Shown here piece by piece: positions 3,079-17,793 of a stretch of 20,861 bases of DNA. The stretch lies in IMG/VR virus record IMGVR_UViG_3300047274_000148, positions 1 to 20,861 of that record; one strand, written 5' to 3'. The notes below the pieces were generated by a model. That model was given only the letters and a program-made list of their open reading frames with translations. It was not told the DNA's origin and ran no database searches. A program made the translations under genes and the position numbers. The DNA comes from a virus. The stretch's first letter is position 1; every line of letters begins with the position of its first letter.

Positions 3079-4223
3079 GAGCAAGAGATTTTTTACGTGA
3101 AGCCGAGCAGAATCTAGTCAAGAAACTAGGTCGTGCGTTTAACCACTTAGAAGATCTAGTTTTCTTTTACGGTAGCAACGGTACAATCGAAGCACTACAG
3201 CACATTAGAGAAATAGCCACAGAAGAAGGCGCAAAAACTGTGCGTATGAAATGGGACGGCAATCCTCAAATTTATTGGGGTAGAGAAACTAAAAACGGGC
3301 CGCTGGTGCTTGCTGGTCACAATGGATGGAGCCGAGGAGCAAAGACTGACAGCCCAGAAGAGCTAGAAGATTTTATTCTTAATAAGAGTGGAAGTCCAAA
3401 GACACCTGAAGAACGTACAGCTAGACAACAATTCGCCAAACAGTTTGCTGGACTATACTCGTTGTTTGATCGTGCTACACCTAAAGATTTTGTAGGCTTC
3501 GTCTATGCCGACGGATTATTCTTAACTCCACCAGAACTAGATGAACAGAACGTTTATAATTTCTGCCCAAACCCTAAGAGCAAAACCTGTTATCATGTAC
3601 AAGGCGACAGTGAACTAGGACAACGTATCGCTAAGGCTCAAGTTATGGTCGTTGGTCATGCGTTCTTTCCCGAGTTTGGCATGGATGACTCAGAACAAAA
3701 ACCATTAGATGATTTCAGCATGTTTAATGGAACAGAAGAACTTATAGTTCAAGGTCCCGTTTACAATGTAAGACCAGTTACGATAGACACACAAGAAATA
3801 CAAGCAGTTGAACGTTACCTACAGCAGAACGCCGGCCGAATTGATAGCTTCTTAAATGGCGCTCCTGGACTTAGCGATTTAAAAAATATTATCTATACCT
3901 TTGTTAATCAAACAGCTAAAGCTAAACAGCTAGACAGCATTGACACGGATATGTTCTTTAATTGGCTACAAAATAGCAAAGTTAGCAAACCTAAACAAGA
4001 AAAGATCCTAGAATTAAGCGGCCAGTATTCTAGTGCCCTTGACGCTATCTTTAACCTTGTTCGTATGGTCATGGACATCAAAGACAAGATCATTGATCAA
4101 GTGGAGCAGGGCCGTGCTGAAATTTGGGACACACACGGTGAAGGTCGTGTGCGATATGCTGGTCCAGATAAACAATTTGGCAACGTCAAACTAGTTCCTC
4201 GCAAACGCTGGACTCCAACTTAA
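3075..4223 (+). CDS. Ligase-like nucleotidyltransferase-superfamily protein (382 aa)
   Basis: ATG 3075 overlaps the upstream stop (ATGA). Residues 59-62 are KWDG, matching motif I (KxDG) of covalent nucleotidyltransferases (DNA/RNA ligases, capping enzymes), where Lys takes the AMP/GMP. A YADGLF block near 149-154 could be motif III, GEGRVRY at 355-361 resembles motif IV (EGxV), and NVKLV at 370-374 resembles motif V. The order and spacing fit a ligase-type core, although the family (which I believe is a DUF common in T4-like phages) has no assigned role. It is coupled to a pol-beta nucleotidyltransferase, suggesting a two-step end-modification or repair job. Catalysis is inferred, not shown. 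Confidence 0.75.
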   Translation: MRARDFLREAEQNLVKKLGRAFNHLEDLVFFYGSNGTIEALQHIREIATEEGAKTVRMKWDGNPQIYWGRETKNGPLVLAGHNGWSRGAKTDSPEELEDFILNKSGSPKTPEERTARQQFAKQFAGLYSLFDRATPKDFVGFVYADGLFLTPPELDEQNVYNFCPNPKSKTCYHVQGDSELGQRIAKAQVMVVGHAFFPEFGMDDSEQKPLDDFSMFNGTEELIVQGPVYNVRPVTIDTQEIQAVERYLQQNAGRIDSFLNGAPGLSDLKNIIYTFVNQTAKAKQLDSIDTDMFFNWLQNSKVSKPKQEKILELSGQYSSALDAIFNLVRMVMDIKDKIIDQVEQGRAEIWDTHGEGRVRYAGPDKQFGNVKLVPRKRWTPT

Positions 4224-4235
4224 TCTCCTAAAAAT

Positions 4236-4258
4236 AGCCCTGATCGGGCTGTTTTTTT
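4236..4258 (+). terminator. Intrinsic terminator after the nucleotidyltransferase pair
   Basis: AGCCC (4236-4240) pairs with GGGCT (4246-4250) around a 5-nt loop and is followed by G and seven T residues. It closes the 1767-4223 transcription unit. Confidence 0.85.
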
Positions 4259-4268
4259 CTCCTTTTGG

Positions 4269-4274
4269 TAAATA
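4269..4274 (+). promoter_or_regulatory. Late-type promoter motif TAAATA for the 116-aa gene
   Basis: GGTAAATAATTATAC lies between the upstream terminator and the structured leader of the gene at 4344. It is the only promoter-like element after the terminator. A weak inverted repeat (CCTTT 4261-4265 / AAAGG 4282-4286) flanks it. Confidence 0.5.
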
Positions 4275-4286
4275 ATTATACAAAGG

Positions 4287-4320
4287 CTTGCAAGGTGCAA
4301 GTCCCCCATAGAGAATGGGG
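4287..4320 (+). promoter_or_regulatory. Structured 5' leader with two tandem hairpins
   Basis: Hairpin 1 is CTTGC/GCAAG (4287-4301, loop AAGGT). Hairpin 2 is CCCCAT/ATGGGG (4304-4320, loop AGAGA). Both lie in the predicted leader, before the GAGGAG ribosome binding site (4331-4336), and leave that site free. The likeliest role is mRNA protection for a highly expressed gene. I could not match it to a known riboswitch. Confidence 0.5.
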
Positions 4321-4343
4321 AAGACATATCGAGGAGAAATATT

Positions 4344-4694
4344 ATGTCAGCAACAACACGTTATAATGGTAGTTATGGTAACTACTCAACAGGTACACTA
4401 CGTTCAGTTTACCAAATGAAAGCATTTGTTATTGATGCTGGTGCATCATTAGCAGATCAAGACGCAGACGCCGCAGGTGAAGTAGATCAAGCAGTTGAAG
4501 CAGTTATCCGCGAAGTACAACCTTTAATGTATTTCACACCAACAGCAACTGACGGTATCATTCACGTTATCGTTGACGGACACGCTGTAGATGCAACAAC
4601 TCTACAAGCTCGTATCCGTGCAATGGGCACAGTTAACAGCTTTGACCTAAGCGGTGCAACTGTAACTTTAGGTACATCAATCGTAGTATCTTAA
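4344..4694 (+). CDS. Hypothetical protein, own transcription unit (116 aa)
   Basis: ATG 4344 follows GAGGAG with 7-nt spacing. The N-terminus is polar and rich in Tyr/Gly/Ser/Thr (MSATTRYNGSYGNYSTG). The middle is acidic and Ala-rich (ADQDADAAGEVDQAVEAV), and the rest is beta-prone (DGIIHVIVDGHAVDATTL, GATVTLGTSIVVS). There is no signal peptide or membrane span. The gene has its own promoter motif, a structured leader, a strong binding site, and terminators on both sides, as expected for an abundant late product such as a small virion or decoration protein. That role is inferred; I recall similar proteins in T4-like marine phages without assigned function. Confidence 0.85.
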   Translation: MSATTRYNGSYGNYSTGTLRSVYQMKAFVIDAGASLADQDADAAGEVDQAVEAVIREVQPLMYFTPTATDGIIHVIVDGHAVDATTLQARIRAMGTVNSFDLSGATVTLGTSIVVS

Positions 4695-4721
4695 TCAGTA
4701 ATTCCCCGGGATGGGAAGGGA

Positions 4722-4748
4722 GCCTCGCTTTTAAAGCGGGGCTTTTTT
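4722..4748 (+). terminator. Strong intrinsic terminator
   Basis: GCCTCGCT (4722-4729) pairs with AGCGGGGC (4735-4742), 8 bp with one G-T pair, loop TTTAA, followed by six T residues. It ends the single-gene unit 28 nt after its stop codon. Confidence 0.92.
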
Positions 4749-4750
4749 AC

Positions 4751-4780
4751 GGCTGTTAAATACTCTGATGATTTACAGCC
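4751..4780 (+). promoter_or_regulatory. Late-type promoter embedded in a hairpin over a leaderless start
   Basis: TAAATA (4757-4762) ends 5 nt before the ATG at 4768 and no Shine-Dalgarno exists. GGCTGT-T-AAAT (4751-4761) is complementary to ATTTACAGCC (4771-4780), giving 10 bp with one bulged T and the ATG in the 9-nt loop. Read-through RNA would hide the start; RNA starting at the promoter would lack the left arm and begin at or next to the ATG. Confidence 0.5.
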
Positions 4781-5142
4781 TATATACACTTGTTGATATT
4801 ACTGCCACAGGACACTATAAATCTAGGAATGATCTAGAGCGTCTTCAGCAACAGAATTTTGACACAGTTATGCAGACTATAAGTCTCGCTGGCAACATCT
4901 ATTATAAAGAACAGCCACAGATCATTACTGCTGAAAAATTTAGCAGACCCGACGATCGTTGCTGGTTTTTTATGTGGCAGATGGAGCTAGATCACTTGTT
5001 TGAAAAAAATGGAGACGAACTGCACGGACTCCGAGAATTATTTAATTTTGTTCCTTTTATCAGTGATTTGACAGAAACTGCGCAGTTCGATCGTCCTTTG
5101 TTCAAAGTTAATGAGAATATTATTTTTGATTTCAAAAAATAA
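4768..5142 (+). CDS. Conserved hypothetical phage protein (124 aa)
   Basis: The start at 4768 is chosen because the following residues (MIYSLYTLVDITATGHY) match, from memory, the N-terminus of a conserved T4-like phage protein, although no Shine-Dalgarno is present. The protein includes RLQQQNFDTVMQTISLAGN and an aromatic core (CWFFMWQMELDHLF). No catalytic motif or membrane span is evident. It has its own late-type promoter directly at the start codon, just after a strong terminator. Function unknown. Confidence 0.85.
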   Translation: MIYSLYTLVDITATGHYKSRNDLERLQQQNFDTVMQTISLAGNIYYKEQPQIITAEKFSRPDDRCWFFMWQMELDHLFEKNGDELHGLRELFNFVPFISDLTETAQFDRPLFKVNENIIFDFKK

Positions 5143-5145
5143 ATA
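5140..5145 (+). promoter_or_regulatory. Late-type promoter motif TAAATA
   Basis: AATAAATACTAC overlaps the TAA stop (5140-5142) of the upstream gene and lies 78 nt before the start at 5224. The 81-bp gap also holds an imperfect GCTC/GAGC stem and ends with the AAGGAG ribosome binding site. Confidence 0.45.
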
Positions 5146-5223
5146 CTACATTAAGGCAAACAAGGCATTTTAGTTTAGGCTCACCTAGTAACACAAATAC
5201 TGAGCAAATAAGGAGATGCCGGA

Positions 5224-5598
5224 ATGGCCACACAAGCAGAACGTCTAGCTATTGTAGAGACTAAGACAGCAATTATTGAACATAAAGTTGATGACCTTAA
5301 AGGTGATGTTAAGGAAATGCACGATTGTCTTGATCGTACAAGAGATTTATTAGATTCTAAGCTAGATAAGATGATGAGCGAGTATGAGTTTAATCGAGAT
5401 AAATTTTATCAGCATGCTGATGCTCTACATAAAGAAAATAAACAAGAACACGCTACATTAGCTAATAAAATTTCCGATCTTGAAAAAGAAAAGCATAAAT
5501 TTACACTATACGCTCTAGTAGTTCTAGGGTTCGCTGCCGGAGCAGGTTGGATAGGACACATCGACCTTGCGAAATTAATAAGGTTTGTTGGTCTTTAA
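5224..5598 (+). CDS. Coiled-coil protein with C-terminal membrane anchor (124 aa); holin-like candidate
   Basis: ATG 5224 has AAGGAG 8 nt upstream. Residues about 5-95 are strongly charged heptad-like helix (RLAIVETKTAIIEHKVDDLK onward). Residues about 97-115 form one membrane span (FTLYALVVLGFAAGAGWIG), with a short tail IDLAKLIRFVGL. This layout resembles XhlA-type hemolysin/holin-accessory proteins and other tail-anchored phage proteins, so a role in lysis or at the membrane is possible. No lysin gene is next to it to support that. The 3' end overlaps the apparent start of the second nucleotidyltransferase by 52 bp. Confidence 0.8.
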   Translation: MATQAERLAIVETKTAIIEHKVDDLKGDVKEMHDCLDRTRDLLDSKLDKMMSEYEFNRDKFYQHADALHKENKQEHATLANKISDLEKEKHKFTLYALVVLGFAAGAGWIGHIDLAKLIRFVGL

Positions 5599-6314
5599 GA
5601 GAGTTTACAAGAGAAAGTATCGTAGATTCGGCGGTTGTTTTTCATGATCAACTGAATAATAATCTATGGCAGGATAATGCTCTCAAACCCATAGTTAGAT
5701 ATAAATTACTCGAGATAGCCAAAGACTTTATAGAGTTCATTAACATACCGTCTATTAGGCTTAGAGACATAACAATTTCTGGATCTAACGCGGCCTATAC
5801 ATATACAGAAAATTCAGATATCGACCTACACCTAGTCGTTGATGTACCAACGGCCGCAAAGTTTCATTTGAAGCCTTTGTACGATGCAAAGAAAAATCAA
5901 TATAACTTTAATCACGATATAAAGATCAAAGGCATCGATGTCGAAGTTTATGTACAGCCTAGTGACGACGAGCATCACAGTGCTGGAATCTATTCAATTC
6001 TAGACGACAAATGGATCAGCGAGCCAGTTAAAGAAAAAGTTAATATCAGCGACAGTGATGTTGAAATTAAAGTAAGAAATTATCTTAATAAAATTAAATT
6101 AGCACTTCGATCTAGTGATATTGAAGTTGCTAATAAAGTAAAAGATAGATTAAACAGTTTACGTAAAACTGGCCTAGAAAGAGAAGGCGAGTTTTCGGTT
6201 GAGAATATTGCATTTAAAGTCTTGAGATCAAAGGGCTACATCGATCAACTAAGACAGCATATATACGATTTACAAGACAAGGCTCTAAGCCTGGAGAACA
6301 AACATGAAAATTAA
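5547..6314 (+). CDS. Second pol-beta-fold nucleotidyltransferase (about 255 aa)
   Basis: The signature is clear: G79-S80 then D91-x-D93 (SDIDLHLVVD) and D131 (GIDVEVYV), numbered from the TTG at 5547. The conserved block SIVDSAVVFHDQLN near residue 24 matches, from memory, the N-terminus of a widespread T4-like phage nucleotidyltransferase. The frame contains no ATG before that block. TTG 5547 (GGAG 4 nt upstream, inside the previous gene) is the best standard start; ATT 5574 after the overlap is another possibility. The substrate is unknown. The C-terminus is a helical, Lys-rich region overlapping the next gene by 11 bp. Confidence 0.8.
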   Translation: MDRTHRPCEINKVCWSLREFTRESIVDSAVVFHDQLNNNLWQDNALKPIVRYKLLEIAKDFIEFINIPSIRLRDITISGSNAAYTYTENSDIDLHLVVDVPTAAKFHLKPLYDAKKNQYNFNHDIKIKGIDVEVYVQPSDDEHHSAGIYSILDDKWISEPVKEKVNISDSDVEIKVRNYLNKIKLALRSSDIEVANKVKDRLNSLRKTGLEREGEFSVENIAFKVLRSKGYIDQLRQHIYDLQDKALSLENKHEN

Positions 6315-7416
6315 ACACGTTATTGAAGGGCTAAAAGATCCTAAGGATAATCCTTGTTGGAAGGGCTACAAACCAGTTGGAACTAAAAAGAAAAATGGTA
6401 AGACTGTACCTAACTGTGTGCCTAAAGAAAGTGTAGAAGAAGGATACGGAAGATACTACTGCTCTACAGATAAAAAGTGGAAAGAACGCAAAGGTCCTAA
6501 GCAGACTAGAGAAAGTGTGGCGGAAGGCTCTGAACCAAATGTAGAAGAGTTTTTTCAGAAAGTTGCACAAGAGGGTGACTACGACATGCTCTATGATGCT
6601 CAAATGGGCAAATATGGTAAAGAGATTGAACGAGCCGTCCAAGACATGTATGATAATGTCAGCATCAATAGTAGAATGCACCCCGATGATGACTTTGAGG
6701 AAATCTATGATCGTATGTTAGATATGATCGAAGACGACTACGGTGTAGTAGGCGAAGAAAACACAGCCAAAGTAACAGACATTAAACCCGGAGATACTGC
6801 TACTATCGACACGGGCACCGGTGTAACCACAACTGTAGATCTTAAGAAAAATCCAACGGCCTTAACCAAGGATCCAGAGTCAGGTAAACTAAAATTAACA
6901 ACCAATCCAATGAGCAATAAACCACCAGAGCAAGGTGGAGATTCTGCAGAACAGCCAATTAAACCAGGTGATGAGATTGAACTAGCTACAGAGGCTGAAA
7001 CTTCTGAAACAAACATACCTCCCATGCCTGATATCACAGGACTACAACCTGGACAAAGTAAAGATCTAGGCGACGGTGAAGCAGTTACATTAAACAGGGA
7101 CAGTACAGTATCTCTCAGCGGAGGATTTGGAACTATTGTTTACAGCAGCCAAGGAAAGCCTTTAAAATATATGCTTCCTCGTATGGGAGGTCTAGGAAAG
7201 ACTATCGACCTAACAACCAATAAAGCAACAACTTCATATAGTGCAGGTCCTATGAACATAACACAGGGTCCAGACGGCGAAGTCGATGCTGAGTACGACT
7301 TTGGAACTGCAAAGGCTAAAATGTCAAGAGATTCTCAGGGTAAGACTACGAGCAGTCTAACTGCTAGAGAAAGTGCCGACCTTGAAGCTATGCTACGTAT
7401 CGCAGGTCTAAAATGA
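6304..7416 (+). CDS. Probable virion-internal protein with short modular motifs (370 aa)
   Basis: ATG 6304 follows CTGGAGAACAAAC (GGAG). Near the N-terminus is DNPCWKGYKPVGTKKKNGK then VPNCVP (about residues 15-40), a module I recall in many T4-like marine phage proteins of likely capsid or prohead origin. Three copies of a basic-ESV/A-x-E tag follow (41-46, 69-74, 355-360). Residues about 75-150 are acidic and helical, 150-235 are low-complexity Thr/Pro/Gly-rich, and the rest is beta-prone and Gly/Ser/Thr-rich, ending LEAMLRIAGLK. There is no enzyme motif. An internal or core virion role is inferred from the shared modules. It ends in an ATGA overlap. Confidence 0.8.
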   Translation: MKIKHVIEGLKDPKDNPCWKGYKPVGTKKKNGKTVPNCVPKESVEEGYGRYYCSTDKKWKERKGPKQTRESVAEGSEPNVEEFFQKVAQEGDYDMLYDAQMGKYGKEIERAVQDMYDNVSINSRMHPDDDFEEIYDRMLDMIEDDYGVVGEENTAKVTDIKPGDTATIDTGTGVTTTVDLKKNPTALTKDPESGKLKLTTNPMSNKPPEQGGDSAEQPIKPGDEIELATEAETSETNIPPMPDITGLQPGQSKDLGDGEAVTLNRDSTVSLSGGFGTIVYSSQGKPLKYMLPRMGGLGKTIDLTTNKATTSYSAGPMNITQGPDGEVDAEYDFGTAKAKMSRDSQGKTTSSLTARESADLEAMLRIAGLK

Positions 7417-7616
7417 AAATAAACGAACTAGTACAAGGGTTTGAGATCTACACATCGAATGCTGAAAAGCAGATGTTAGAACAACTATCTACACCTCGAC
7501 CCTTGCATAGTTTTTCTGAAAACGATCAGTTCACGATCGAGTCGCTGATTAGAAAAAGTTTGGTAATTAAGATAGGAGACATTAATCCTAGAGTAATTGC
7601 TAATGAAATACACTAA
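7413..7616 (+). CDS. Small conserved phage protein (67 aa)
   Basis: ATG 7413 overlaps the upstream stop by 4 bp. The protein begins MKINELVQGFEIYTSNAEKQ and contains FTIESLIRKSLVIKIG and NPRVIANEIH. The pattern (N-terminal MKxNEL-GF, central E-LIRKSL, C-terminal ANEIH) is one I recall from small conserved genes of T4-like marine phages, with no known role. The last 14 bp overlap the next start. Confidence 0.8.
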   Translation: MKINELVQGFEIYTSNAEKQMLEQLSTPRPLHSFSENDQFTIESLIRKSLVIKIGDINPRVIANEIH

Positions 7617-8031
7617 ACAAGCCGAAAAATTAGAAAGATTTCTTGAAGACGAGTTTAAAAACAATATTAAACTTGTTGTAGTTTCTAAAGACGTTGTGAT
7701 CTACAAAAACTTTAAGATCACGAAGATTGCTAACGGCTGGCAATTAAGCTATAATAGTGGCGATAAAATTGCTGATTTTAAGCTAAAAGCCTGTGCGGCC
7801 TTGGCAGCTAAGTTTTATGATATTAATTCTATGCAACGAATTAATGAAATTAAAGCCCTAGATCTAGGATATTGGACTAACTATACGGATTCAACGATTT
7901 TTAAGATAAGAGCTGAAAATGCGTCGACTCTTGAAAAACGCGAGCTTTATTACTGTAGATGGGACATCACCAGACATAGAGCATTGAAGTATAAACAAGA
8001 AATTTCTCAAATGTTTAAGCAGAGCTTTTGA
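7603..8031 (+). CDS. Hypothetical protein (142 aa)
   Basis: ATG 7603 is preferred to an upstream TTG at 7597. It lies inside the end of the preceding gene and has only a weak GAG upstream, so translation probably depends on coupling. The protein has a basic helical N-terminus (MKYTKQAEKLERFLEDEF), a beta-rich middle (IKLVVVSKDVVIYKNFKITK), a helix with KACAALAAKFYD, and a basic C-terminus ending QMFKQSF. No family recognised. The TGA stop is directly followed by a TAAATA motif. Confidence 0.8.
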   Translation: MKYTKQAEKLERFLEDEFKNNIKLVVVSKDVVIYKNFKITKIANGWQLSYNSGDKIADFKLKACAALAAKFYDINSMQRINEIKALDLGYWTNYTDSTIFKIRAENASTLEKRELYYCRWDITRHRALKYKQEISQMFKQSF

Positions 8032-8037
8032 TAAATA
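8032..8037 (+). promoter_or_regulatory. Late-type promoter motif TAAATA
   Basis: TTTTGATAAATAAAAATAAC begins in the last codons of the upstream gene and lies 28 nt before the ATG at 8066, which has an AGGGA ribosome binding site. It is the same GATAAATAAA sequence as the minus-operon motif at 1686-1693. Confidence 0.5.
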
Positions 8038-8065
8038 AAAATAACAATCTTTCAGGGATTAAAAA

Positions 8066-8983
8066 ATGCAAGTTAAAGACCTTTCACATCCAAAAACAAC
8101 TAAAGCACTAAATGAAAGTGCGGCGAAACAATTTGGCTACAAATTAAATGTAGACGGCTTCACTATGGAACAACTTTGTTCAGCTAGAGATAATCTTGTT
8201 GAAAAGATTTCCCAGTTTGAAGTTAGCAAAAACTATGATGCTGTTTACGAGAATACAGATTATCAAAAGAATAGAATGTTCCTAGACATTATTACACAGG
8301 CTATCGCAGAGCGTACACTAAGCCCAGGCGAAGAAAAGAAGCGTGAAAAGTATGTTAAAGGCATGAAGAAAGTTAAGGGTGATTTTTCGAAACGCTATGG
8401 CGATAAAGGCGAAGAAGTCATGTACGCTACAGCGACTAAAATGGCAAAGAAAGAAAGTGTTGAAGAGGCAATGGATGTGCTACGCTCTGCACTTAATGAA
8501 AGAGTCTTAACAGAAGGCGAAGAAGAAAGAGCGGCTCTCATAATGAAAGCTCGCGACATGGTTGACAAGTTAACAGGCTGGTTAGAAGACACAGCTTCGC
8601 TAAAAGCAGAAGCACTATTAGAATTACTAGACTCTATAAGAGATGAATTAGGCTCAGATGTCAGCGCACAGTTCGCTGAGAAAGTAAAGCCAGCACTAGA
8701 AGAAGTTTATACAACATTAGAAACAAATCGTCAAGCTCTAGCACAGGCTGTAGCAGTTATCACAGGCGAAGAAGCCCCAACAATGGGAGCAGAAGGCGCA
8801 CCAGAACCTGCACCAGCAGAAGAAGAAGGTGCTGACCTTGAAGCTGATCTAGCATCCGCAGGTGATGAATTTGCGGCTAGCACACCAGCAACCGGTGGCG
8901 AAGAAGAAGCAGGTCGCGCAAAACGTGAAAGCGTCGAGCGTAGCCGCAGATTAGGCCAAATTTTAAGCTCAAAAAAAAACTAA
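8066..8983 (+). CDS. Probable virion-internal/core protein, zero-frame product (305 aa)
   Basis: ATG 8066 follows CAGGGATTAAAAA. Residues about 1-85 are a helical domain (AAKQFGYKLNVDGFTMEQL). A basic module at 88-130 (KKVKGDFSKRYGDKGEEVMY then ATATKMAKK) recurs, from memory, in T4-like marine phage internal proteins. Next come an ESVEE tag (130-134), an LTEGEEE site resembling a T4 prohead-protease site (L-x-E), a helical domain to about 245, and an acidic Ala/Pro/Glu linker (AEGAPEPAPAEEEGADLEA). It ends GRAKRESVERSRRLGQILSS-KKN-stop. The stop immediately follows a slippery A9C run and a hairpin, so a -1 fusion of 412 residues is also expected. A core or scaffold role is inference. Confidence 0.85.
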   Translation: MQVKDLSHPKTTKALNESAAKQFGYKLNVDGFTMEQLCSARDNLVEKISQFEVSKNYDAVYENTDYQKNRMFLDIITQAIAERTLSPGEEKKREKYVKGMKKVKGDFSKRYGDKGEEVMYATATKMAKKESVEEAMDVLRSALNERVLTEGEEERAALIMKARDMVDKLTGWLEDTASLKAEALLELLDSIRDELGSDVSAQFAEKVKPALEEVYTTLETNRQALAQAVAVITGEEAPTMGAEGAPEPAPAEEEGADLEADLASAGDEFAASTPATGGEEEAGRAKRESVERSRRLGQILSSKKN

Positions 8984-9012
8984 CTGAAGATACGGACGAT
9001 CTAGTCCGTATC
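8974..9012 (+). promoter_or_regulatory. Candidate programmed -1 ribosomal frameshift signal
   Basis: Nine A residues (8971-8979) followed by C contain the in-phase heptamer A AAA AAC (8974-8980). The zero-frame stop TAA is next (8981-8983). After an 8-nt spacer comes a perfect 9-bp stem, GATACGGAC (8989-8997) / GTCCGTATC (9004-9012), with a 6-nt loop. Slippage of -1 enters a frame open to 9303. No U-tract follows, so this is not a terminator. Transcript slippage on A9 would give the same fusion. Confidence 0.7.
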
Positions 9013-9303
9013 CTCTCTACTCTGCAGGGCCGCGCAGACAGCAAACGTACTACCGCTAAGTTCACATGGGACGCCTTGTCCAACATGTCTCAAAACCTTA
9101 CAGGTCAGCAAATTGACTATGAAGCGTTCAAGCTCGAATACGATAACAATCCACAGATTAAAAATCTAGTTAAGAGTTTCAACGGTCGTGGGCTAGTGAT
9201 CAAAACCAAAGCTAAAGACAAAGAAGAAGTTCGAAATAAGAAACCATCCGGTAATTCAGGTGCATTGGCCGCGGCCAATGCCGTGCTCAAGAGACCAGGT
9301 TGA
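8980..9303 (+). CDS. C-terminal extension reached by -1 frameshift (107 codons)
   Basis: From 8980 this frame reads LTEDTDDLVRILSTLQGRAD, then KFTWDALSNMSQ, IDYEAFKLEYDNNPQIKNLV and SFNGRGLVIKTK, ending in a Lys-rich tail and Ala-rich LAAANAVLKRPG. The FTWDAL...YEAFK...YD-NP-IKNLV...F pattern looks like a real conserved fold and begins well before the first possible starts (TTG 9076, ATG 9085), neither of which has a good Shine-Dalgarno. A separate short protein from 9085 is possible, but the frameshift signal just upstream fits better. A single-base sequencing error in the A9 run would also create this picture. The stop TGA lies within the -35 box of the next promoter. Confidence 0.65.
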   Translation, partial: LTEDTDDLVRILSTLQGRADSKRTTAKFTWDALSNMSQNLTGQQIDYEAFKLEYDNNPQIKNLVKSFNGRGLVIKTKAKDKEEVRNKKPSGNSGALAAANAVLKRPG

Positions 9304-9328
9304 CAGGTAGTGTCAAGTAATATATAAT
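9300..9328 (+). promoter_or_regulatory. Perfect sigma70 promoter with -35 inverted repeat, leaderless start
   Basis: TTGACA (9300-9305), 17-bp spacer, TATAAT (9323-9328): both boxes match the bacterial consensus exactly. The 7th base after the -10 is the A of ATG 9335, so the mRNA should start at the start codon. TTGACA-GGTAG-TGTCAA (9300-9316) is a perfect 6-bp inverted repeat over the -35 and could be an operator; a second repeat, AGTAA/TTACT (9316-9334), brackets the -10. The -35 contains the upstream TGA stop. Confidence 0.85.
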
Positions 9329-9334
9329 GTTACT

Positions 9335-10024
9335 ATGACCTTATTAAAACCTAAATTTGAATATAAATCTTTAACTAGAGACGAATCAACTGGCAAAAGA
9401 CTTTATGCAACACCAGATGGACACAAAGTTCCATCTGTTACTACTATCCTTGATAAAACCAAACCGGCAGAATCTAGAGAAGCCCTAGCTAGATGGCGGG
9501 CCGCAGTTGGAGCAGAAAAGGCACAACAGATTACCACAGAAGCCGCTAGCCGCGGAACTAGGATGCACACGTTCTTAGAGCGTTACATCAAAGGCGAAGA
9601 ACTTCCGGAATCCGTAACCAATCCCTATGCTCAACAAAGCCTTGTGATGGCCAAGAAAGTAATCACCCATGGCATGAATTTTGTTGATGAAGTTTGGGGT
9701 TCAGAAGTTCCTTTATACTTCCCCGAACTATATGCGGGAACTACTGACTGTGTAGGCGTACATCAAGGCGATGAAGCTATCCTAGATTTTAAGCAGACTA
9801 ACAAGCCTAAAAAGCGTGAATATATTGACGATTACTTTTTACAGTTAACAGCCTACGCTCTTGCACACAACGAAATCCACGGAACTAACATCCGCAAGGG
9901 TGTTATCCTAATGTGTTCAAAAGACTACGAGTATCAGGAGTTTATCTTAGAACCCAAGGATTTTGACTACTGGACAGAACGTTGGTGTGCTAGGGTATCA
10001 GAATACTACAAGCTAAACAGCTAA
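9335..10024 (+). CDS. PD-(D/E)XK (RecB/Cas4-like) nuclease (229 aa)
   Basis: The RecB-family nuclease pattern is complete: a GTRMHTF block with H78, GTTDCVG with D138, AILDFKQT with D151 and K153 (the D...DxK core), and the downstream QLTAYA block with Q170. The N-terminal part includes VPSVTTILD, common in phage members of this family. It should be a Mg-dependent DNA nuclease acting in replication, recombination or host DNA breakdown; no Cas4-type cysteine cluster is visible. No ribosome binding site is present, matching a leaderless mRNA from the sigma70 promoter directly upstream, and suggesting early expression by host polymerase. Confidence 0.9.
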   Translation: MTLLKPKFEYKSLTRDESTGKRLYATPDGHKVPSVTTILDKTKPAESREALARWRAAVGAEKAQQITTEAASRGTRMHTFLERYIKGEELPESVTNPYAQQSLVMAKKVITHGMNFVDEVWGSEVPLYFPELYAGTTDCVGVHQGDEAILDFKQTNKPKKREYIDDYFLQLTAYALAHNEIHGTNIRKGVILMCSKDYEYQEFILEPKDFDYWTERWCARVSEYYKLNS

Positions 10025-10047
10025 ATATCCTATATAGAGGGATATTT
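10022..10047 (+). promoter_or_regulatory. Late-type promoter inside a hairpin that covers the ribosome binding site
   Basis: TAAATA (10022-10027) overlaps the TAA stop of the nuclease gene. AAATATCC (10023-10030) and GGATATTT (10040-10047) form a perfect 8-bp stem with a 9-nt loop, and the GAGGGA binding site (10037-10042) of the fibre gene lies partly in the right arm. Read-through RNA from the nuclease promoter would have a masked site. RNA started at this late motif (about 10034) would lack the left arm. Confidence 0.6.
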
Positions 10048-10049
10048 CA

Positions 10050-11639
10050 ATGGCTGTTTATCAGATTTCACGCATACAAATCCGTAGAGGTAAGAAAAAC
10101 GAGGGCACTGGCATGCCTCAGCTTGCTGGTGGAGAACTAGCTTGGGCTATTGATACACAAGAGCTATACATTGGTAGCGGCTCTGTGAGCGATGGTGCTC
10201 CGGCGGTTGGAAACACAAAGATCTTAACAGAATATGATAATATTTTAGATCTAGCAGAACAGTATCAGTATAAGTCCAACAACGCTGACATACAGACCGG
10301 AACAGATGCTAATTACCCAGTTAGACGAACTCTGCAAGATAGACTAGATGATCGAGTTTCTGCGGCGGCCTACGGCATTGTAGCAGACGAAACCGATCAA
10401 GCTGAAAAGATACAAAATGCGATTGATAACTTATTTTTAAACCCTGCAAACGTTTCTGAAACATCCAGCAGAGTTATTTTAGAATTTGCTCCAGGGACCT
10501 ATGTAATAAATCAAACAATCTACATTCCAAGTAATACTACTATCCTAGGCAGTGGTATTGAAAAGACTGTGTTTGCATTTACAGGAACTGGCCCAGTATT
10601 TGAATTTATCAATGATACATCCTCACCATTGGATAGAAATACAGTTGACGGCATCGAATACAACTACCAACCTAAATTTATTTCAATGAAGAACTTTTCT
10701 GTGACCACAATCGACGTTGCAGAAATTTTAAGATTGTACTCAGTTAGAGATTCACAATTTGAAAACATTAGAGCTACTGGTACTTGGGAATCCGCCGACG
10801 GAAATGAAAGCGGAAGCATCGGATTGGGTTTATATGCGTTCAGCAACTCAGTCACCTGCCAAAGAAATAAATTTGTAAATGTTACTGCGGATGGTTTCTG
10901 CTACGGCGTTTATTCTAAGACAGATATTTTTAATAACACGTTCGATGACTGCAAGTTTCAAAATGCGCAGTATGGCATAGCATTTGGTATCGGAACTAAC
11001 GGAAGCTCGACCGGTGAGGTGTATGGTCCAAGAAAGAATATAATCAAGAATTGTTTATTTGAAACGATCGATAGACAGGGTATCATAGTCGATACTGGCT
11101 ACGGAAATAGATCTAGAGGAAATACATTTATTGACGTAGGCAATGACGGTGGTGGAAATTCTAACAATACCTACAGTCAGATTACTTTTACCCAACCTGG
11201 TAATACTAGTAATCAAGACAACTTCGATCGAGCCATCGACCTAGCTTCAGATAATTGGACTGATCCGTATCTTGCAGAAGTTGAAGGATCTGTTTTCAGA
11301 TCAGACTTTGAAACTAAACAAATAAACATCACACAGAGTCCAACTCCAGTTGAAGCGTTTAGAATACCAGTAAACAAAAATACTGGAATCATTATCAACT
11401 ATGTATTCAAAAGCACAGCTTATGATCAAATGCGTTCAGGAAAGTTAACTGTAGCAGTTGACTATGCAAACAGCACTATTCAATTAGTTGACGACTTTGA
11501 GTACACAGGAACCATCGGTGAAGAAGAAAACCTAATGTTTTCATCTAGTCTCGTTGATGATAATATCATCATTTACTATGCAAACGACAACGTTGGCGAC
11601 TCTGCAACATTAACCTATACACATAGCACACTCAGTTAA
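10050..11639 (+). CDS. Tail-fibre/spike-like protein with beta-helix (529 aa)
   Basis: ATG 10050 has GAGGGA upstream. The N-terminus, YQISRIQIRRGKKNEGTGMP then QLAGGELAWAIDTQELYIGS, is the typical attachment module of phage fibre and structural proteins (ELAWAxDTxxLYIG). Residues about 105-360 resemble a pectate-lyase-like right-handed beta-helix: SRVILEFAPGTYVINQTIYI, then repeating N-x-F/I turns such as NKFVNVTADG, NTFDDCKFQNAQYGIAFG and KNIIKNCLFETIDRQG. The C-terminal region is beta-rich without an obvious chaperone domain. It is likely a host-recognition or glycan-binding virion component. No catalytic residues could be assigned. Confidence 0.85.
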   Translation: MAVYQISRIQIRRGKKNEGTGMPQLAGGELAWAIDTQELYIGSGSVSDGAPAVGNTKILTEYDNILDLAEQYQYKSNNADIQTGTDANYPVRRTLQDRLDDRVSAAAYGIVADETDQAEKIQNAIDNLFLNPANVSETSSRVILEFAPGTYVINQTIYIPSNTTILGSGIEKTVFAFTGTGPVFEFINDTSSPLDRNTVDGIEYNYQPKFISMKNFSVTTIDVAEILRLYSVRDSQFENIRATGTWESADGNESGSIGLGLYAFSNSVTCQRNKFVNVTADGFCYGVYSKTDIFNNTFDDCKFQNAQYGIAFGIGTNGSSTGEVYGPRKNIIKNCLFETIDRQGIIVDTGYGNRSRGNTFIDVGNDGGGNSNNTYSQITFTQPGNTSNQDNFDRAIDLASDNWTDPYLAEVEGSVFRSDFETKQINITQSPTPVEAFRIPVNKNTGIIINYVFKSTAYDQMRSGKLTVAVDYANSTIQLVDDFEYTGTIGEEENLMFSSSLVDDNIIIYYANDNVGDSATLTYTHSTLS

Positions 11640-12070
11640 TGCTGACAGCCGAGAAAGCTTCTCAAAAAAGACTAACATCGTGGTATGACCTCAGGCAACG
11701 GATAGAGTTATCCTCGAATCCGTTTGAAGAGGTCAGTAAATATTTCTCACGACTGCCTAGAGTCAAAATCTACACCGATCCATACGACAGCTCAACATGG
11801 CCGTCACCATGGGAACTCATAGATGAAAATGAATATTGTGAATTCAACATCATATTGGGTATTTGTTATACTATTCAATTAACTGAGCGTTTTAAACATG
11901 TTCAGCCAAAGATAAATGTGGCCATTGACAATATCAATAAAACTGTTTATTATTTGTTGATTATTGATGATAAAGTATATGGTTACGCCAATGAAGAATG
12001 GACTACCATAGATCAACTTCCAACTACGCTGAAGATGCAAAAGATCTATGCTATGAAACCTCTTCACTAA
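11639..12070 (+). CDS. Conserved hypothetical protein downstream of fibre (143 aa)
   Basis: ATG 11639 shares one base with the fibre stop (TAATG) and has no Shine-Dalgarno, so translation is probably coupled. The protein contains TDPYDSSTWPSPWELIDENE followed by CEFNIILGICYTIQLTERF, a pattern I recall from a conserved partner of fibre genes in T4-like marine phages. It is soluble, mixed alpha/beta, with no catalytic motif. Position and coupling suggest a virion or fibre-assembly role; this is inference. Its stop overlaps the TAAATA motif before nrdA. Confidence 0.85.
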   Translation: MLTAEKASQKRLTSWYDLRQRIELSSNPFEEVSKYFSRLPRVKIYTDPYDSSTWPSPWELIDENEYCEFNIILGICYTIQLTERFKHVQPKINVAIDNINKTVYYLLIIDDKVYGYANEEWTTIDQLPTTLKMQKIYAMKPLH

Positions 12071-12073
12071 ATA
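12068..12073 (+). promoter_or_regulatory. Late-type promoter motif TAAATA before nrdA
   Basis: ACTAAATATTG overlaps the TAA stop (12068-12070) of the upstream gene and lies 27 nt before the nrdA ATG. A weak 5-bp stem (TCTTC/GAAGA) surrounds it. The only ribosome-binding-like sequence before ATG 12101 is the purine run AGAAAGAG. Confidence 0.4.
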
Positions 12074-12100
12074 TTGTTCCAGAAGAAAGAGAAAAATCAG

Positions 12101-14443
12101 ATGTCAAATATTACCGTAATTAAAAGAAGCGGCGAAAAAGAACCGCTCCATATTGAAAAGTGGCAAGCTCAGATAACCAAGGTCTGTCAAGGAGTAGCAG
12201 ATGTTAGTCAATCAATGATCGAGATCAAGAGCCAGCCACACTTTTATGACGGTATCACTACAAAAGAAATTGATGAGATTACCCTAAGAGCTATCGTTGA
12301 TCTCATCGATGTTGAAAACAACCCAGATGTTGGCCACACCAATTATCAATATGTAGCAGGCAAACAGCGTTTGAGCATGTTACGTAAAGATGTATATGGT
12401 AGCTACGAAGTCCCCAACATCTACGAAATCGTTAAAAAGAATGTAGCAGTAGGTCTTTATACACCAGAGCTTCTTGAGTGGTATACTGAAGAAGATTGGA
12501 ATCGCATGAATGAAATGCTTGAGCACGACAAAGACGAGCAATACAGTTATGCGGCCATTGAGCAGTTGATTGAAAAGTATCTAGTACGCAATCGTGCTAC
12601 TAAAGAGATTTATGAAACACCGCAGATTCGCTACATGGTTGCCGCGGCAACTGTGTTCCATAAAGAAGAGCCTAACACGGCTCGTATGCGTTATATCAAG
12701 GAATACTACAATGCTGCCTCAGATGGTTTATTCACACTTGCGACACCTGTCCTTGCAGGACTCGGTACTCCTACTAAGCAGTTTAGTAGTTGTGTACTCA
12801 TTCGTAGCGATGATGATTTGGATAGTATATTTGCTAGTGGCGAAATGATGGCCAAGTATGCCAGTAAGAGAGCGGGGATTGGATTGGAAATCGGTCGACT
12901 TCGCCCATTGGGCTCCCCGATCCGTGGCGGCGAAATCATGCACACTGGTATGATTCCTTTCCTTAAGAAATGGTTTGGCGACCTACGTAGTTGTTCACAA
13001 GGAGGTATTCGTAATGCTTCGGCTACGGTTTTTTATCCCATCTGGCATCATCAGTTTGATGACCTTATCGTTCTTAAGAACAACCAAGGTACAGAAGAGA
13101 CTAGGGTACGACACATGGATTATGGTGTCGTTCTATCTGCATTCTTCTGGCGCCGCTTTAAGAACAAGGAAGACATTACGTTCTTCGACCCTAATGAAGT
13201 ACCTGACCTTTATGAAGCCTTCTATAAGGATACTGCCTTATTCGAAGAACTATATGTAAAATATGAAAAACGTAAAGATCTACGCAAGAAAACAATGAAC
13301 GCTGAAGATGTGTTCAAAGGTGGTATACTAAAGGAGAGGACTGATACAGGACGCATCTACCTAGTGTTCATTGACAATGTAATGAACCAAGGACCATTTG
13401 ATCCAGAGTACCACACCATTTATCAGTCAAACTTATGCTGTGAAATTCTTTTACCTACTAGGCCTTTTAAGCGCCTCGATGACGATGCTGGCCGCATCGC
13501 TTTATGTACTCTTGGCAGCATCAACTGGGGAGCGTTCCGTAATCCCGAAGATATGCGTCGCGCTTGCCGTATACTTCAGCGTAGCCTTTGCAATATATTG
13601 GACTACCAAGACTTTCTCTCAATACAGTCTAAGTTAAGTAACGATGAGATCCAACCGTTGGGTATTGGAGTTACTAACCTAGCCTACTGGCACGCCAAGC
13701 GCGGCCACAAATACGGAGAAAAGGATGCCCTACAAGAAGTTAAATCATGGATGGAACATCAGGCTTACTATTTGACTGAAGCTACAGTTGAACTAGCCAA
13801 AGAGCGCGGTGCGTGTCTGCACAGTGACAAGACTCGTTACGGTCAGGGAGTGTTTCCTTGGGAATTACGTGCCAGGGGTGTTAACGAATTAGCAGACTTT
13901 ACACCCGAACTTGATTGGGAAACATTACGCACCAATATGAAACAATATGGTGTACGAAATGCTACACTTATGGCCATTGCTCCTGTCGAATCTAGTTCTG
14001 TAGTAATCAACTCTACTAATGGCATCGAAATGCCTATGAGCCTTATTTCTACTAAAGAGTCGAAGGCAGGCTCCTTTACACAAGTAGTTCCTGATTATCA
14101 TAGATTAAAGAACAAGTATCAATTAATGTGGGAACAGCGTGACTGTCAGGGCTATCTGAAGACTGCGGCAGTACTAGCGGCCTATGTGGATCAGAGCATT
14201 TCAACTAATACATTCTACAATCCTGCACACTTCCCGGATCGTAAAGTGCCAACTACATTAATTGCTAAAAACTTAATGCAGGCTCAACTGTGGGGTATCA
14301 AAACTTTCTACTATAGCTTAATTAATAAAGCTGGCGCCAAGCACGAAGACAGAACACCTGAAGTCCACTACAATGGATTCCACAACGAACGAGAACTAAT
14401 TGAAGAACTAATTGATGACGATTGTGAGGCATGTAAGTTGTAA
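12101..14443 (+). CDS. nrdA: Ribonucleotide reductase class Ia, alpha subunit (780 aa)
   Basis: Reduces ribonucleoside diphosphates to deoxy forms for phage DNA synthesis, with NrdB as radical donor. Residues 1-90 are an ATP-cone (ITVIKRSGEKEPLHIEKWQ). Active-site residues are visible: C231 (FSSCVLI) and C469 (IALCTLG) as the redox pair; N444, C446 and E448 in SNLCCEI as the radical site; the tyrosine pair in TFYYS near the C-terminus; and the C-terminal CEACKL tail cysteines (C775, C778) that accept electrons from glutaredoxin. The length is normal for the family. ATG 12101 is chosen over TTG 12074 because the ATP-cone starts there. A glutaredoxin gene lies in the same cluster. The next gene starts at the base after the stop. 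Confidence 0.97.
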   Translation: MSNITVIKRSGEKEPLHIEKWQAQITKVCQGVADVSQSMIEIKSQPHFYDGITTKEIDEITLRAIVDLIDVENNPDVGHTNYQYVAGKQRLSMLRKDVYGSYEVPNIYEIVKKNVAVGLYTPELLEWYTEEDWNRMNEMLEHDKDEQYSYAAIEQLIEKYLVRNRATKEIYETPQIRYMVAAATVFHKEEPNTARMRYIKEYYNAASDGLFTLATPVLAGLGTPTKQFSSCVLIRSDDDLDSIFASGEMMAKYASKRAGIGLEIGRLRPLGSPIRGGEIMHTGMIPFLKKWFGDLRSCSQGGIRNASATVFYPIWHHQFDDLIVLKNNQGTEETRVRHMDYGVVLSAFFWRRFKNKEDITFFDPNEVPDLYEAFYKDTALFEELYVKYEKRKDLRKKTMNAEDVFKGGILKERTDTGRIYLVFIDNVMNQGPFDPEYHTIYQSNLCCEILLPTRPFKRLDDDAGRIALCTLGSINWGAFRNPEDMRRACRILQRSLCNILDYQDFLSIQSKLSNDEIQPLGIGVTNLAYWHAKRGHKYGEKDALQEVKSWMEHQAYYLTEATVELAKERGACLHSDKTRYGQGVFPWELRARGVNELADFTPELDWETLRTNMKQYGVRNATLMAIAPVESSSVVINSTNGIEMPMSLISTKESKAGSFTQVVPDYHRLKNKYQLMWEQRDCQGYLKTAAVLAAYVDQSISTNTFYNPAHFPDRKVPTTLIAKNLMQAQLWGIKTFYYSLINKAGAKHEDRTPEVHYNGFHNERELIEELIDDDCEACKL

Positions 14444-14635
14444 ATGAATTCGTTTGAAAAAATATGGGCTAGAGCTACAGGTCATCTAATGGGTAATACC
14501 GATGATGACCGCCCAGATGTACCTATCCTAACTTTAAAAGAAGCAAGAATAGCATTATTTTTAAAAACGTTCTGGGTCGTTATACATGTGGTAACATGTT
14601 TTTTTATTATTGCAAACACAATTAGACATTGGTGA
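14444..14635 (+). CDS. Small membrane protein between nrdA and nrdB (63 aa)
   Basis: ATG 14444 directly follows the nrdA stop. The N-terminal half is soluble (MNSFEKIWARATGHLMGN, then DDDRPDVPILTLKEA). Residues about 38-59 form one membrane helix (ALFLKTFWVVIHVVTCFFII) with a short ANTIRHW tail. From memory a similar small gene occurs in other T4-like marine phages. Its role is unknown; it could anchor or regulate at the inner membrane. Confidence 0.8.
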   Translation: MNSFEKIWARATGHLMGNTDDDRPDVPILTLKEARIALFLKTFWVVIHVVTCFFIIANTIRHW

Positions 14636-14641
14636 AATGAA

Positions 14642-15301
14642 ATGTTAGAAACAATATGTGACATAATGGTTGACGCTTATAAGCGTAACTGGATCACAAG
14701 CCGTGACGGTAACGTGAGCATTCGTCACCACGACCGTGATCATTTTTATATTACACCAAGTGGTGTACGTAAACAAACACTACAACCAGATCAATTTAAA
14801 AAAATTAAAATTAATCGATGGATACCTAGTGGTAATGGAACGGCCGATTATAAGTATTCTTGGGAGGAAATGCCCTACAGCGACATAAGCAGTGCATTGA
14901 GACCCAGCGGCGAGATTCCCTTACATTTTGGATTGCAAAAAGAAATGGGACAACACAAAGATGATGTTCGTGTAGTAGTACATGTTCATCCTACGTATTG
15001 TGTTGCGGCCATGCATGCTGGTATTGATTTGAGCACGGTAGTAGATAGTTTCCCAGAACTAAGCCGTTATACTAAGGTCGCCCCTAATGTAGGAGATGTT
15101 CCGCCTATTAGTCAGGAACTTGCAGATCGTTGCTTTGAGAAGCTACAATTAGATAATGCTGGAAACCTTTCCCACGATATAGTAGGTATCAAAGGCCATG
15201 GAGTTGTTGCCATAGACACTAGTCCGTGGCGAGCATACGAGCACATCGAACGACTAGAACATATTTGCAAGATTGTACTTGCATCAGGAAATTACAAATG
15301 A
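14642..15301 (+). CDS. Class II aldolase/adducin-family protein (219 aa)
   Basis: The class II aldolase pattern is complete: RDGNVSIR (21-28), TPSG (38-41), PSGEIPLHFG with E91 as the likely catalytic acid, the zinc ligands H114 and H116 (HVHPTYC), and H186 (KGHGVVA). Members include fuculose- and ribulose-phosphate aldolases/epimerases, acting on sugar phosphates such as ribulose 5-phosphate. The exact substrate is not readable here. An insert at about residues 50-85 is longer than I expect for FucA-type enzymes. Sitting between nrdA and nrdB, it may feed pentose phosphate towards nucleotides; this is inference. It overlaps nrdB by ATGA. Confidence 0.88.
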   Translation: MLETICDIMVDAYKRNWITSRDGNVSIRHHDRDHFYITPSGVRKQTLQPDQFKKIKINRWIPSGNGTADYKYSWEEMPYSDISSALRPSGEIPLHFGLQKEMGQHKDDVRVVVHVHPTYCVAAMHAGIDLSTVVDSFPELSRYTKVAPNVGDVPPISQELADRCFEKLQLDNAGNLSHDIVGIKGHGVVAIDTSPWRAYEHIERLEHICKIVLASGNYK

Positions 15302-16398
15302 GTAGACAACAATACAACTTAAAAACTAAAACAGATTACCTTAATCGTAAGATGTTCCTAGACCCAGCAGGTCCAGTTACTATACAACGATTTGAAGAAG
15401 TCAAATATAATAAAATTGCAGACTTTGAAAAAACAGCACGTGGTTTCTTTTGGGTGCCAGAAGAGATTAGTCTAACAAAAGATGCACAAGACTTTAAGGA
15501 TGCATCGGATGCAGTTAAACATATCTTCACTAGCAACCTGCTTAGGCAAACTGCTCTTGACAGTCTGCAAGGTCGCGGCCCAAGTCAAATCTTTACTCCG
15601 GTCATAAGCCTACCGGAACTAGAAGCATTGGTCTACAACTGGACGTTCTTTGAGACTAACATCCATAGTCGTAGTTACAGCCACATCATTCGTAACATCT
15701 ATAACGTACCTAAGGATGTGTTTAACACTATCCACGATACTAAAGAGATCGTAGACATGGCATCAAGTGTTGGACTTTATTACGATAAGCTACATACGAT
15801 TAATTGTCTAATAGAATCTGGTGAAAAAATTGACGAAGAAAAGCATATCAAGGCAATCTATCTAGCCTTACACGCAAGTTATGCCTTAGAAGCATTCCGA
15901 TTTATGGTTAGCTTTGCTACAAGTCTAGCAATGGTAGAGAACAAGATCTTTATCGGCAATGGCAACATTATCAGTCTTATCCTACAAGACGAATTGCTAC
16001 ATAAAGGTTGGACTGCTTACTTGATCAATCAAGTAGTCAAAGAAGATCCTCGTTTCGCTCGTGCGGCACAAGAATGCCAAGAAGAAGTATTACAGATCTA
16101 TCGTGATGTTATTGCAGAAGAAAAAGCATGGGCAGATTATTTGTTTAAGAAAGGTCCTGTAATTGGTCTTAACGCAAACATCCTAAAAGAATTTGTTGAC
16201 TACACAGCAGTCGGTGCTTTGAAGGATATTGGAATTAAGTATTGGGGTCATGCTCCAAAGTCAACACCAATCCCTTGGTTCAACAAGCACAGCGATACAA
16301 GTAAGAAACAAACTGCTCTACAGGAAAACGAGTCAACTAACTACGTAATTGGCGTGATGTCCGATGCGATTGACTACGACGAACTTCCTGCATTATAA
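15298..16398 (+). CDS. nrdB: Ribonucleotide reductase class Ia, beta subunit (366 aa)
   Basis: Provides the diiron-tyrosyl radical for NrdA. ATG 15298 (AGGAAATTACAA upstream) overlaps the aldolase stop; the longer frame is only overlap. Likely metal ligands are D88 (ALDSLQGR), E119, H123, E198 (YALEAFRF), and E232 and H235 (DELLH), with radical Tyr127 (HSRSYSH). The C-terminal tail, DYDELPAL, is the usual NrdA docking peptide. One oddity: the first ligand pair reads E-T-N-I-H, whereas E. coli NrdB has E-T-I-H (ExxH), so one residue is added between Glu and His. Confidence 0.96.
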   Translation: MSRQQYNLKTKTDYLNRKMFLDPAGPVTIQRFEEVKYNKIADFEKTARGFFWVPEEISLTKDAQDFKDASDAVKHIFTSNLLRQTALDSLQGRGPSQIFTPVISLPELEALVYNWTFFETNIHSRSYSHIIRNIYNVPKDVFNTIHDTKEIVDMASSVGLYYDKLHTINCLIESGEKIDEEKHIKAIYLALHASYALEAFRFMVSFATSLAMVENKIFIGNGNIISLILQDELLHKGWTAYLINQVVKEDPRFARAAQECQEEVLQIYRDVIAEEKAWADYLFKKGPVIGLNANILKEFVDYTAVGALKDIGIKYWGHAPKSTPIPWFNKHSDTSKKQTALQENESTNYVIGVMSDAIDYDELPAL

Positions 16399-16416
16399 TT
16401 AATATTGGAGATTTAA

Positions 16417-16641
16417 ATGAAAGCTATTGTATGGTCAAAGTATCACTGCCCCTATTGCGATCAGGCCAAGGCCTTGCTAACGCAAAAAGGCATTGAATTT
16501 GAAGAAAGAAAAATTGGTGACGGGTATACTCGAGAAGAACTGCTCGAAGCTGTGCCAAATGCTAGGACAGTTCCGCAGATTTTCATAGATGGGGAACTCA
16601 TCGGTGGATTTACAGAATTAAAACAACACTTACAGGGATAA
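16417..16641 (+). CDS. Glutaredoxin (74 aa)
   Basis: A dithiol glutaredoxin with CPYC (11-14), the cis-proline TVP motif (51-53) and the GG pair (63-64) for glutathione. It should pass electrons from glutathione to the NrdA C-terminal cysteines, as phage and host glutaredoxins do. The ribosome binding site TTGGAG is well placed. Length is typical of minimal phage glutaredoxins. It lies directly after nrdB, which supports the RNR-partner role. Confidence 0.95.
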   Translation: MKAIVWSKYHCPYCDQAKALLTQKGIEFEERKIGDGYTREELLEAVPNARTVPQIFIDGELIGGFTELKQHLQG

Positions 16642-16643
16642 TA

Positions 16644-16964: not shown

Positions 16965-17261
16965 ATGCCAGCAGTTGCTAGATTAGGAGATACTATTGCT
17001 ACCGGACACGGATGTGATGGAACTACGACCTTAACTAGCCCATCTGGTGATGTTTTTGCCAATAACATTGGAATCGAACGTCAAGGTGATCCAACAGTAA
17101 CTCATAGATATGGCGGCCGTGGCTGTTCAGCCCAACATGCTGTATCTATTGTTGCTGGATCTGGAACTGTGTTTGTGAACAATAAACCAATCGCAAGGAT
17201 TGGAGATCCGGTAGACAGCGGATCAATTACATCTGGCTCACCAACAGTATTTGCTGGTTGA
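16965..17261 (+). CDS. PAAR-domain tail-spike tip protein (98 aa)
   Basis: A full-length single-domain PAAR protein: MPAVARLGDTIATGHGCDG, SPSGDVFANN, RQGDPTVTH, GRGCSAQHAVSIVAGSGTVF and ARIGDPVDSG...ITSGSPTVFAG. It has the typical GD/GS strand repeats, with His (GHG, VTH, QHA) and Cys (GCD, GCS) residues as probable Zn ligands. PAAR proteins such as T4 gp5.4 cap the membrane-piercing tail spike. ATG follows AGGATAATAA. The stop TGA lies within the -35 box of the next promoter. Confidence 0.93.
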   Translation: MPAVARLGDTIATGHGCDGTTTLTSPSGDVFANNIGIERQGDPTVTHRYGGRGCSAQHAVSIVAGSGTVFVNNKPIARIGDPVDSGSITSGSPTVFAG

Positions 17262-17286
17262 CAAACTCAAAAAACTCTATTACAAT
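17258..17286 (+). promoter_or_regulatory. Sigma70 promoter for a leaderless gene
   Basis: TTGACA (17258-17263), 17-bp spacer, TACAAT (17281-17286). The 7th base after the -10 is the A of ATG 17293, exactly as at 9300-9335. No Shine-Dalgarno is present. The TGA stop of the PAAR gene is inside the -35. This should drive host-polymerase (early) transcription of the nucleotidase-carbamoyltransferase-Hc1 group. Confidence 0.8.
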
Positions 17287-17292
17287 TTGTGT

Positions 17293-17793
17293 ATGAAAAT
17301 ATATCTAGACATGGATGACGTAGTCGCCGATTGGATTAACTACGCCAAAGACTTTTTAAAACTACGATGGGATCACGAAGCTGGTGAGCGTATCCCACAA
17401 AATGAATGGGATCGTCTCAAAGACGATAGCCGTTTTTATCTAAACTTGCCTCTCAAAGCTGGGGCTATGGATCTAGTATCTCATTGTAGAACTCTAGTAG
17501 ATACAGGCCGAGCAGAAAGCCTACAGTTCCTAACAGCTCTTCCACATGACTATTCTATGCCATATGCGGCACAGGACAAGGTTTGGTGGGCTGATAGACA
17601 CTTTAAAGGTATACCGGTGTTTCTCGGACCATTTAGCTACGATAAATGGCGTCACTGTAAACCCGGAGACATCTTAATTGATGATCGACACAGTAATTGT
17701 TCAGAATGGAGAAGTGCAGGAGGTCTAGCTCATGAATATCGTACCTGGGAAGCCTGCAAACTATGGTTAGATCAGGAGTTCGGTCCTTTATGA
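17293..17793 (+). CDS. HAD-family 5'(3')-deoxyribonucleotidase-like protein (166 aa)
   Basis: The start is the leaderless ATG 17293, since the N-terminus MKIYLDMDDVVADW is HAD motif I (nucleophile D6, acid D8), with the D-x-D-x-V-x-AD form of deoxyribonucleotidases. Motif II is FLTALP (T81), motif III Lys is probably K96 (DKVWW), and motif IV is DILIDDR (D130, D131). The family removes phosphate from deoxynucleoside monophosphates, which fits nucleotide balancing beside RNR. A Trp-rich segment at 97-120 shapes the pocket. It overlaps the carbamoyltransferase by ATGA. Confidence 0.88.
   Translation: MKIYLDMDDVVADWINYAKDFLKLRWDHEAGERIPQNEWDRLKDDSRFYLNLPLKAGAMDLVSHCRTLVDTGRAESLQFLTALPHDYSMPYAAQDKVWWADRHFKGIPVFLGPFSYDKWRHCKPGDILIDDRHSNCSEWRSAGGLAHEYRTWEACKLWLDQEFGPL

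Follow-up and report, generated by a model that had tools for sequence, protein, structure and literature searches.

A putative translation lock combining a leaderless promoter with a start-hiding hairpin at a phage exonuclease gene

Introduction

In phage T4, the start regions of genes e, soc, 49 and I-TevI, as well as of segB and of mobE in phage Aeh1, fold into a hairpin in read-through RNA, with a promoter located inside the hairpin (PMC3014915, PMC2988022). In the e/I-TevI type, long RNAs arriving from upstream carry both arms and keep the start hidden, and translation occurs on RNA that was initiated at the inner promoter and is devoid of the 5' arm (PMC3014915, PMC2988022). The transcriptome of phage AR9 displays leaders of 26-491 nt, and the same paper mentions in passing that leaderless transcripts are frequent in phages (PMC5312081). 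Here we analyse a viral DNA of 20,861 bases, which represents a complete IMG/VR record and is referred to below as the window. Its exonuclease gene appears to be expressed from a leaderless mRNA. As in the T4 e/I-TevI type, a predicted hairpin covers the translation start, and the 5' arm of this hairpin lies upstream of the RNA start.

Results

The gene in question (9335..10024, plus strand) encodes a PD-(D/E)XK exonuclease of 229 aa, with domain matches to PF12705 (E 8.5e-6) and to the exonuclease family PHROG 298 (E 3.8e-60). Its start region, 9300-9337, has the layout TTGACA-N17-TATAAT-N6-ATG on the plus strand: the -35 element TTGACA occupies 9300..9305, the -10 element TATAAT 9323..9328 and the 6-nt discriminator GTTACT, the spacing of which is kept in relatives, 9329..9334. 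The A of the start codon (9335-9337) is the predicted RNA start. A sequence-only reading of this DNA had described an exact consensus promoter with the ATG 7 nt after the -10 element and no Shine-Dalgarno (SD) sequence. The description is accurate: TTGACA-N17-TATAAT spans 9300-9328, the A of ATG is the seventh base after the -10 element, and SD-like tetramers are absent upstream of the ATG both in the window and in all 62 non-redundant nuclease copies. The promoter scan of bases 1-20000 found no other 12/12 sigma70 match.

A similar layout, TTGACA-N17-TACAAT-N6-ATG (17258..17295, plus strand), precedes a 5'(3')-deoxyribonucleotidase-like gene (NT5C; 17293..17793, plus strand; PF06941, PHROG 2643), and some members of the NT5C family retain this second leaderless promoter. 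The window contains two matches to TTGACA-N17-TAYAAT-N6-ATG, whereas 100 dinucleotide shuffles gave 0.00. At both copies the upstream reading frame terminates via a TGA within TTGACA; at the nuclease, this is the stop codon (9301-9303) of a gene on the same strand. A site at 16370 (11/12, 18-nt spacer) was set aside, as its gene possesses a GGAG and is separated from the -10 element by 17 nt. The T4 late promoter class, TATAAATA, shows no enrichment in the window.

The structural gene upstream of the nuclease (8066-9303) is probably subject to a programmed -1 frameshift. Its zero frame ends in TCA AAA AAA AAC TAA with a dnaX-like slip site, A_AAA_AAC, at 8974-8980; a 12-bp hairpin follows at 8986-9015, and the -1 frame continues to 9303. 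The A-run followed by (G/C)TAA is kept in nearly all of the 19 relatives examined, and many of these carry a different yet self-complementary hairpin sequence behind the slip site.

The promoter is conserved well beyond the window. A strong promoter is found 5-9 nt before the same ATG in 45 of the 80 IMG/VR nuclease homologs, with a gap between the -10 element and the ATG of 6 nt in 22 copies, 5 nt in 12, 9 nt in 6 and 7 nt in 5; conservation of spacing in related genomes, suggested earlier as a check, is thus seen in dozens of loci. In the NT5C family the gap equals exactly 6 nt in 14 of the 17 copies that have a strong promoter at most 40 nt from the ATG. The nuclease gene of the cultured Pseudomonas phage PA5oct, PQE65_gp244, whose product has 43% protein identity to that of the window, likewise has the promoter; in PA5oct and in MIJ3, also cultured, the homologous gene starts with TTGACA-N17-TATAAT-N7-ATG, and the hairpin arms read AUAGCCU..AGGCUAU. 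The conserved promoter and spacing, the lack of SD-like tetramers and the recurrence of the layout at a second gene strongly support, by comparison between genomes, the leaderless mRNA postulated by the sequence-only reading, the RNA ends themselves being predicted. The accompanying remark that leaderless genes are unusual is weakened by the IMG/VR matches to TTGACA-N17-TATAAT-N6-ATG, 76 out of 120 of which open ORFs of at least 60 aa.

Other arrangements are seen in further genes and homologs. TTGACA-N17-TATATT-N6-ATG, or a near match to it, is also seen in a family of small proteins about 97 aa long (MTLLLIFSAQVLFNIFKVLEIRY...; L176, L194, L109, L114). In the related jumbo phages GAP32, CBB, XbC2 and Kaldavass (L283, L291, L293, L296) the homologous exonuclease gene has TATAAT, but with a short SD-bearing leader, and the TATAAT lies inside a small GUGCU/AGUAC hairpin; this may be an intermediate version of the lock proposed below. 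Several promoterless nuclease homologs (L036-L039, L044, L052, L075) have their start at the stop of a gene end of the IscA/HesB type, which resembles the end of 20175-20501 in the window. The coincidence of start and stop suggests that translational coupling replaces a promoter of their own in these homologs.

The predicted hairpin at the nuclease start comprises a 5' arm at 9306..9323 and a 3' arm at 9327..9345 (both plus strand), the latter including the end of the -10 element, the discriminator, the start codon and the first codons. The -10 element sits at the tip. RNA begun at the promoter would not contain the 5' arm, which confines the hairpin to read-through RNA from the virion-type genes upstream. 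In the window the fold is of moderate strength, with -11.0 kcal/mol (z -2.16) for the sense and -6.1 (z -0.47) for the antisense strand; the NT5C copy in the window has a weak hairpin, almost none. Across relatives, the spacer between the -35 and -10 elements pairs with the discriminator, the start codon and the first codons, and the -10 element remains at or near the tip. The sequence and register of the hairpin vary between phages, while the pairing is kept. The predicted probability of the AUG being unpaired is 0.29 in the read-through RNA and 0.89 in the leaderless RNA, against 0.43 at other gene starts.

The pairing was assessed at the 62 non-redundant loci by setting the spacer against the discriminator plus 9 nt of coding sequence and swapping the partners between loci. 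The Watson-Crick stem averages 5.58 against 4.34 +- 0.12 with swapped partners (z 10.3), and the minimum free energy -9.35 against -5.36 +- 0.29 kcal/mol (z -13.8). When partners are exchanged only between nearest relatives, with a median protein identity of 85%, the energy still changes from -9.45 to -5.91, a loss of 3.5 kcal/mol (p 4e-7), which indicates that the arms change together over short times. The fold also weakens, by 1.2 kcal/mol (z -5.3), when only the first 12 nt of the coding sequence are swapped, which indicates that the region of the start codon itself contributes to the pairing. We conclude from these sequence comparisons that the pairing between spacer and start region is under selection.

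The selected fold has features of an RNA structure. The difference between sense and antisense strands in the nuclease loci amounts to -1.32 against -0.49 +- 0.20 (z about -4.2), and the sense strand is favoured in NT5C as well (z -2.6). Allowing G-U pairs gives z 9.9 in the nuclease loci, compared with z 6.2 when A-C pairs are allowed instead; in the unrelated NT5C family the corresponding values are 3.5 for WC+GU and 0.2 for WC+AC. Direct counts of mismatches, with few events, do not separate the two (4 G-T against 3 A-C). The sense-strand bias and the tolerance of G-U pairs point to RNA rather than to a DNA-binding site.

The hairpin accompanies the promoter unevenly. Nuclease homologs without the promoter have no hairpin (mean z -0.28, against -2.76 with the promoter), and a z of -2 is reached in 36 of 61 promoter-bearing rows against 2 of 31 promoterless ones. 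Some promoter-bearing copies have almost no hairpin, and about 40% are without a strong one. The tree needs 21 hairpin changes, implying repeated gain and loss; a tree-independent test of promoter-hairpin pairs, with only 4 usable pairs, was not significant. The hairpin is not a general trait of leaderless-spaced promoters, as 74 unrelated phage genes with leaderless spacing display only a slight excess of pairing (-3.79 against a null of -3.39). Nor is it a terminator: it has no U-tract and is missing from the list of the terminator scan. A few unrelated phage genes with the leaderless spacing (L382, L343, L323 and L298) fold strongly around the -10 element and the ATG, with -8.6 to -15.0 kcal/mol, and the arrangement may for this reason serve other genes too.

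Discussion

The explanation that best accounts for these data, and one we regard as probable on the strength of the sequence comparisons, is a translation lock conditional on the promoter used, in which a leaderless start is combined with silencing of read-through RNA by the hairpin. A sigma70-type promoter would make the first base of the nuclease AUG the 5' end of the RNA, producing a leaderless mRNA. Longer RNAs from upstream would also cross the nuclease, because the gene lies directly behind virion-type genes (in several isolates, the nuclease is located amid virion structural genes) and the terminator scan lists no terminator-like site at 9300-9345, between the upstream gene and the nuclease. 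In such read-through RNA the stretch between the -35 and -10 elements would pair with the discriminator as well as with the AUG and the first codons, hiding the start codon, and the promoter-initiated RNA without the 5' arm would leave the AUG free. Nuclease translation would thereby depend on the gene's own promoter, probably used early by host RNA polymerase, and would be prevented on the RNA of structural genes, which is probably late; this timing is suggested by the promoter type and the virion neighbours. Silencing of nuclease translation on read-through RNA is the likeliest role of the hairpin, the loss of translation being deduced from the fold. The hairpin could be partly redundant, as an internal AUG without SD may be poorly translated anyway.

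The architecture might alternatively serve transcription and start placement only, with the hairpin as a by-product or of minor importance. The promoter is indeed more regular than the hairpin, which about two-fifths of promoter-bearing rows lack in strong form, and nearby sequence is partly complementary to the -10 element and the ATGAC start. Composition effects of this kind are, however, preserved in the swapped-partner (z ~10) and nearest-relative tests, and generic leaderless-spaced genes display little hairpin, which makes a promoter without a lock an unlikely account of the locus. A more radical version, in which RNA synthesis begins at another site and the match to a promoter is not used, draws on the fact that consensus matches alone do not prove a start and that the 5' end at the AUG is a prediction; with both hexamers and the distance to the ATG conserved in dozens of diverged relatives and at a second gene, we deem it the least probable of the alternatives. 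Stable stems at gene borders are common RNase targets, and the presence of a stem would fit a processing site at which read-through RNA is cleaved by an RNase of host or phage, making or destroying the leaderless message. This is improbable in view of the consensus promoter conserved at the same place. Many stems also continue past the AUG into coding sequence, the 3' arm ending at +3 or beyond in most copies, so that a cut at the hairpin base would not free the AUG as a 5' end.

Regulation at the DNA level was the proposal of the sequence-only reading, which saw a repressor operator in the inverted repeat TTGACA-GGTAG-TGTCAA. The repeat is real and perfect (9300-9305 and 9311-9316), but a repressor operator is unsupported. 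Complementarity of the TTGACA/TGTCAA type is found in 3 of the 62 non-redundant relatives, compared with 1.7 +- 1.3 in shuffled spacers, which is about the level of chance, and we rejected this repeat as an operator; a different dyad is the one under selection. The repeat is at least partly explained by the TGAC common to the -35 element and the start ATGACC, as TGTCAA includes its complement GTCA. Moved to the dyad over the -10 element, where a bound repressor would block the promoter, the operator hypothesis gains from the overlap with the core promoter, a common place for operators, and from the excess pairing of the antisense strand (z -12.5). It remains highly improbable, since the arm sequence differs even between phages whose nucleases are 85% identical, the start codon and first codons participate, and the strand bias and G-U tolerance described above favour RNA. 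Instead of a conserved dyad sequence at a fixed position, we find that both sequence and centre vary, the centre within a span of 17 bp relative to the -10 element, a drift that a protein operator would hardly tolerate.

A translation lock conditional on the promoter would, if true, bring together in a single small module two known devices, leaderless mRNA and the silencing of read-through RNA by a hairpin, and would let the nuclease gene stay in a virion gene cluster without nuclease being made from virion RNA. We also lean, with less assurance, towards a general phage device in which the promoter acts as an anti-start element and carries in its spacer the complement of the region around the start codon. 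One module of 45 bp would then allow leaderless translation of RNA begun at its own promoter and keep all read-through RNA silent, in at least two unrelated genes and in phages as remote as PA5oct. With their rapid turnover, the arms would offer a naturally recorded case of selection on RNA base pairs that overlap both a promoter and the start of a coding sequence, and the module is directly testable in the cultured PA5oct.

Our literature search found no description of a leaderless promoter combined with an anti-start hairpin, which does not prove that none exists. We know of no anti-start hairpin in read-through RNA described for leaderless mRNAs of the lambda cI type. Such phage mRNAs share with the nuclease message an RNA that begins at the AUG, with no Shine-Dalgarno sequence (PMC9031893). 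The read-through hairpin of Bacillus subtilis sigG is unlike the present one in belonging to a cellular gene that has a leader with a ribosome-binding site and no leaderless start (PMC5942855). The T4 e/I-TevI type employs an SD leader and a phage late inner promoter (TATAAATA), and it is the early RNA that is silenced. Here, an apparently leaderless mRNA goes with a sigma70-like promoter, and virion genes would be the source of the silenced RNA, so that the timing suggested for this locus is opposite to that of T4 e, soc, 49 and I-TevI.
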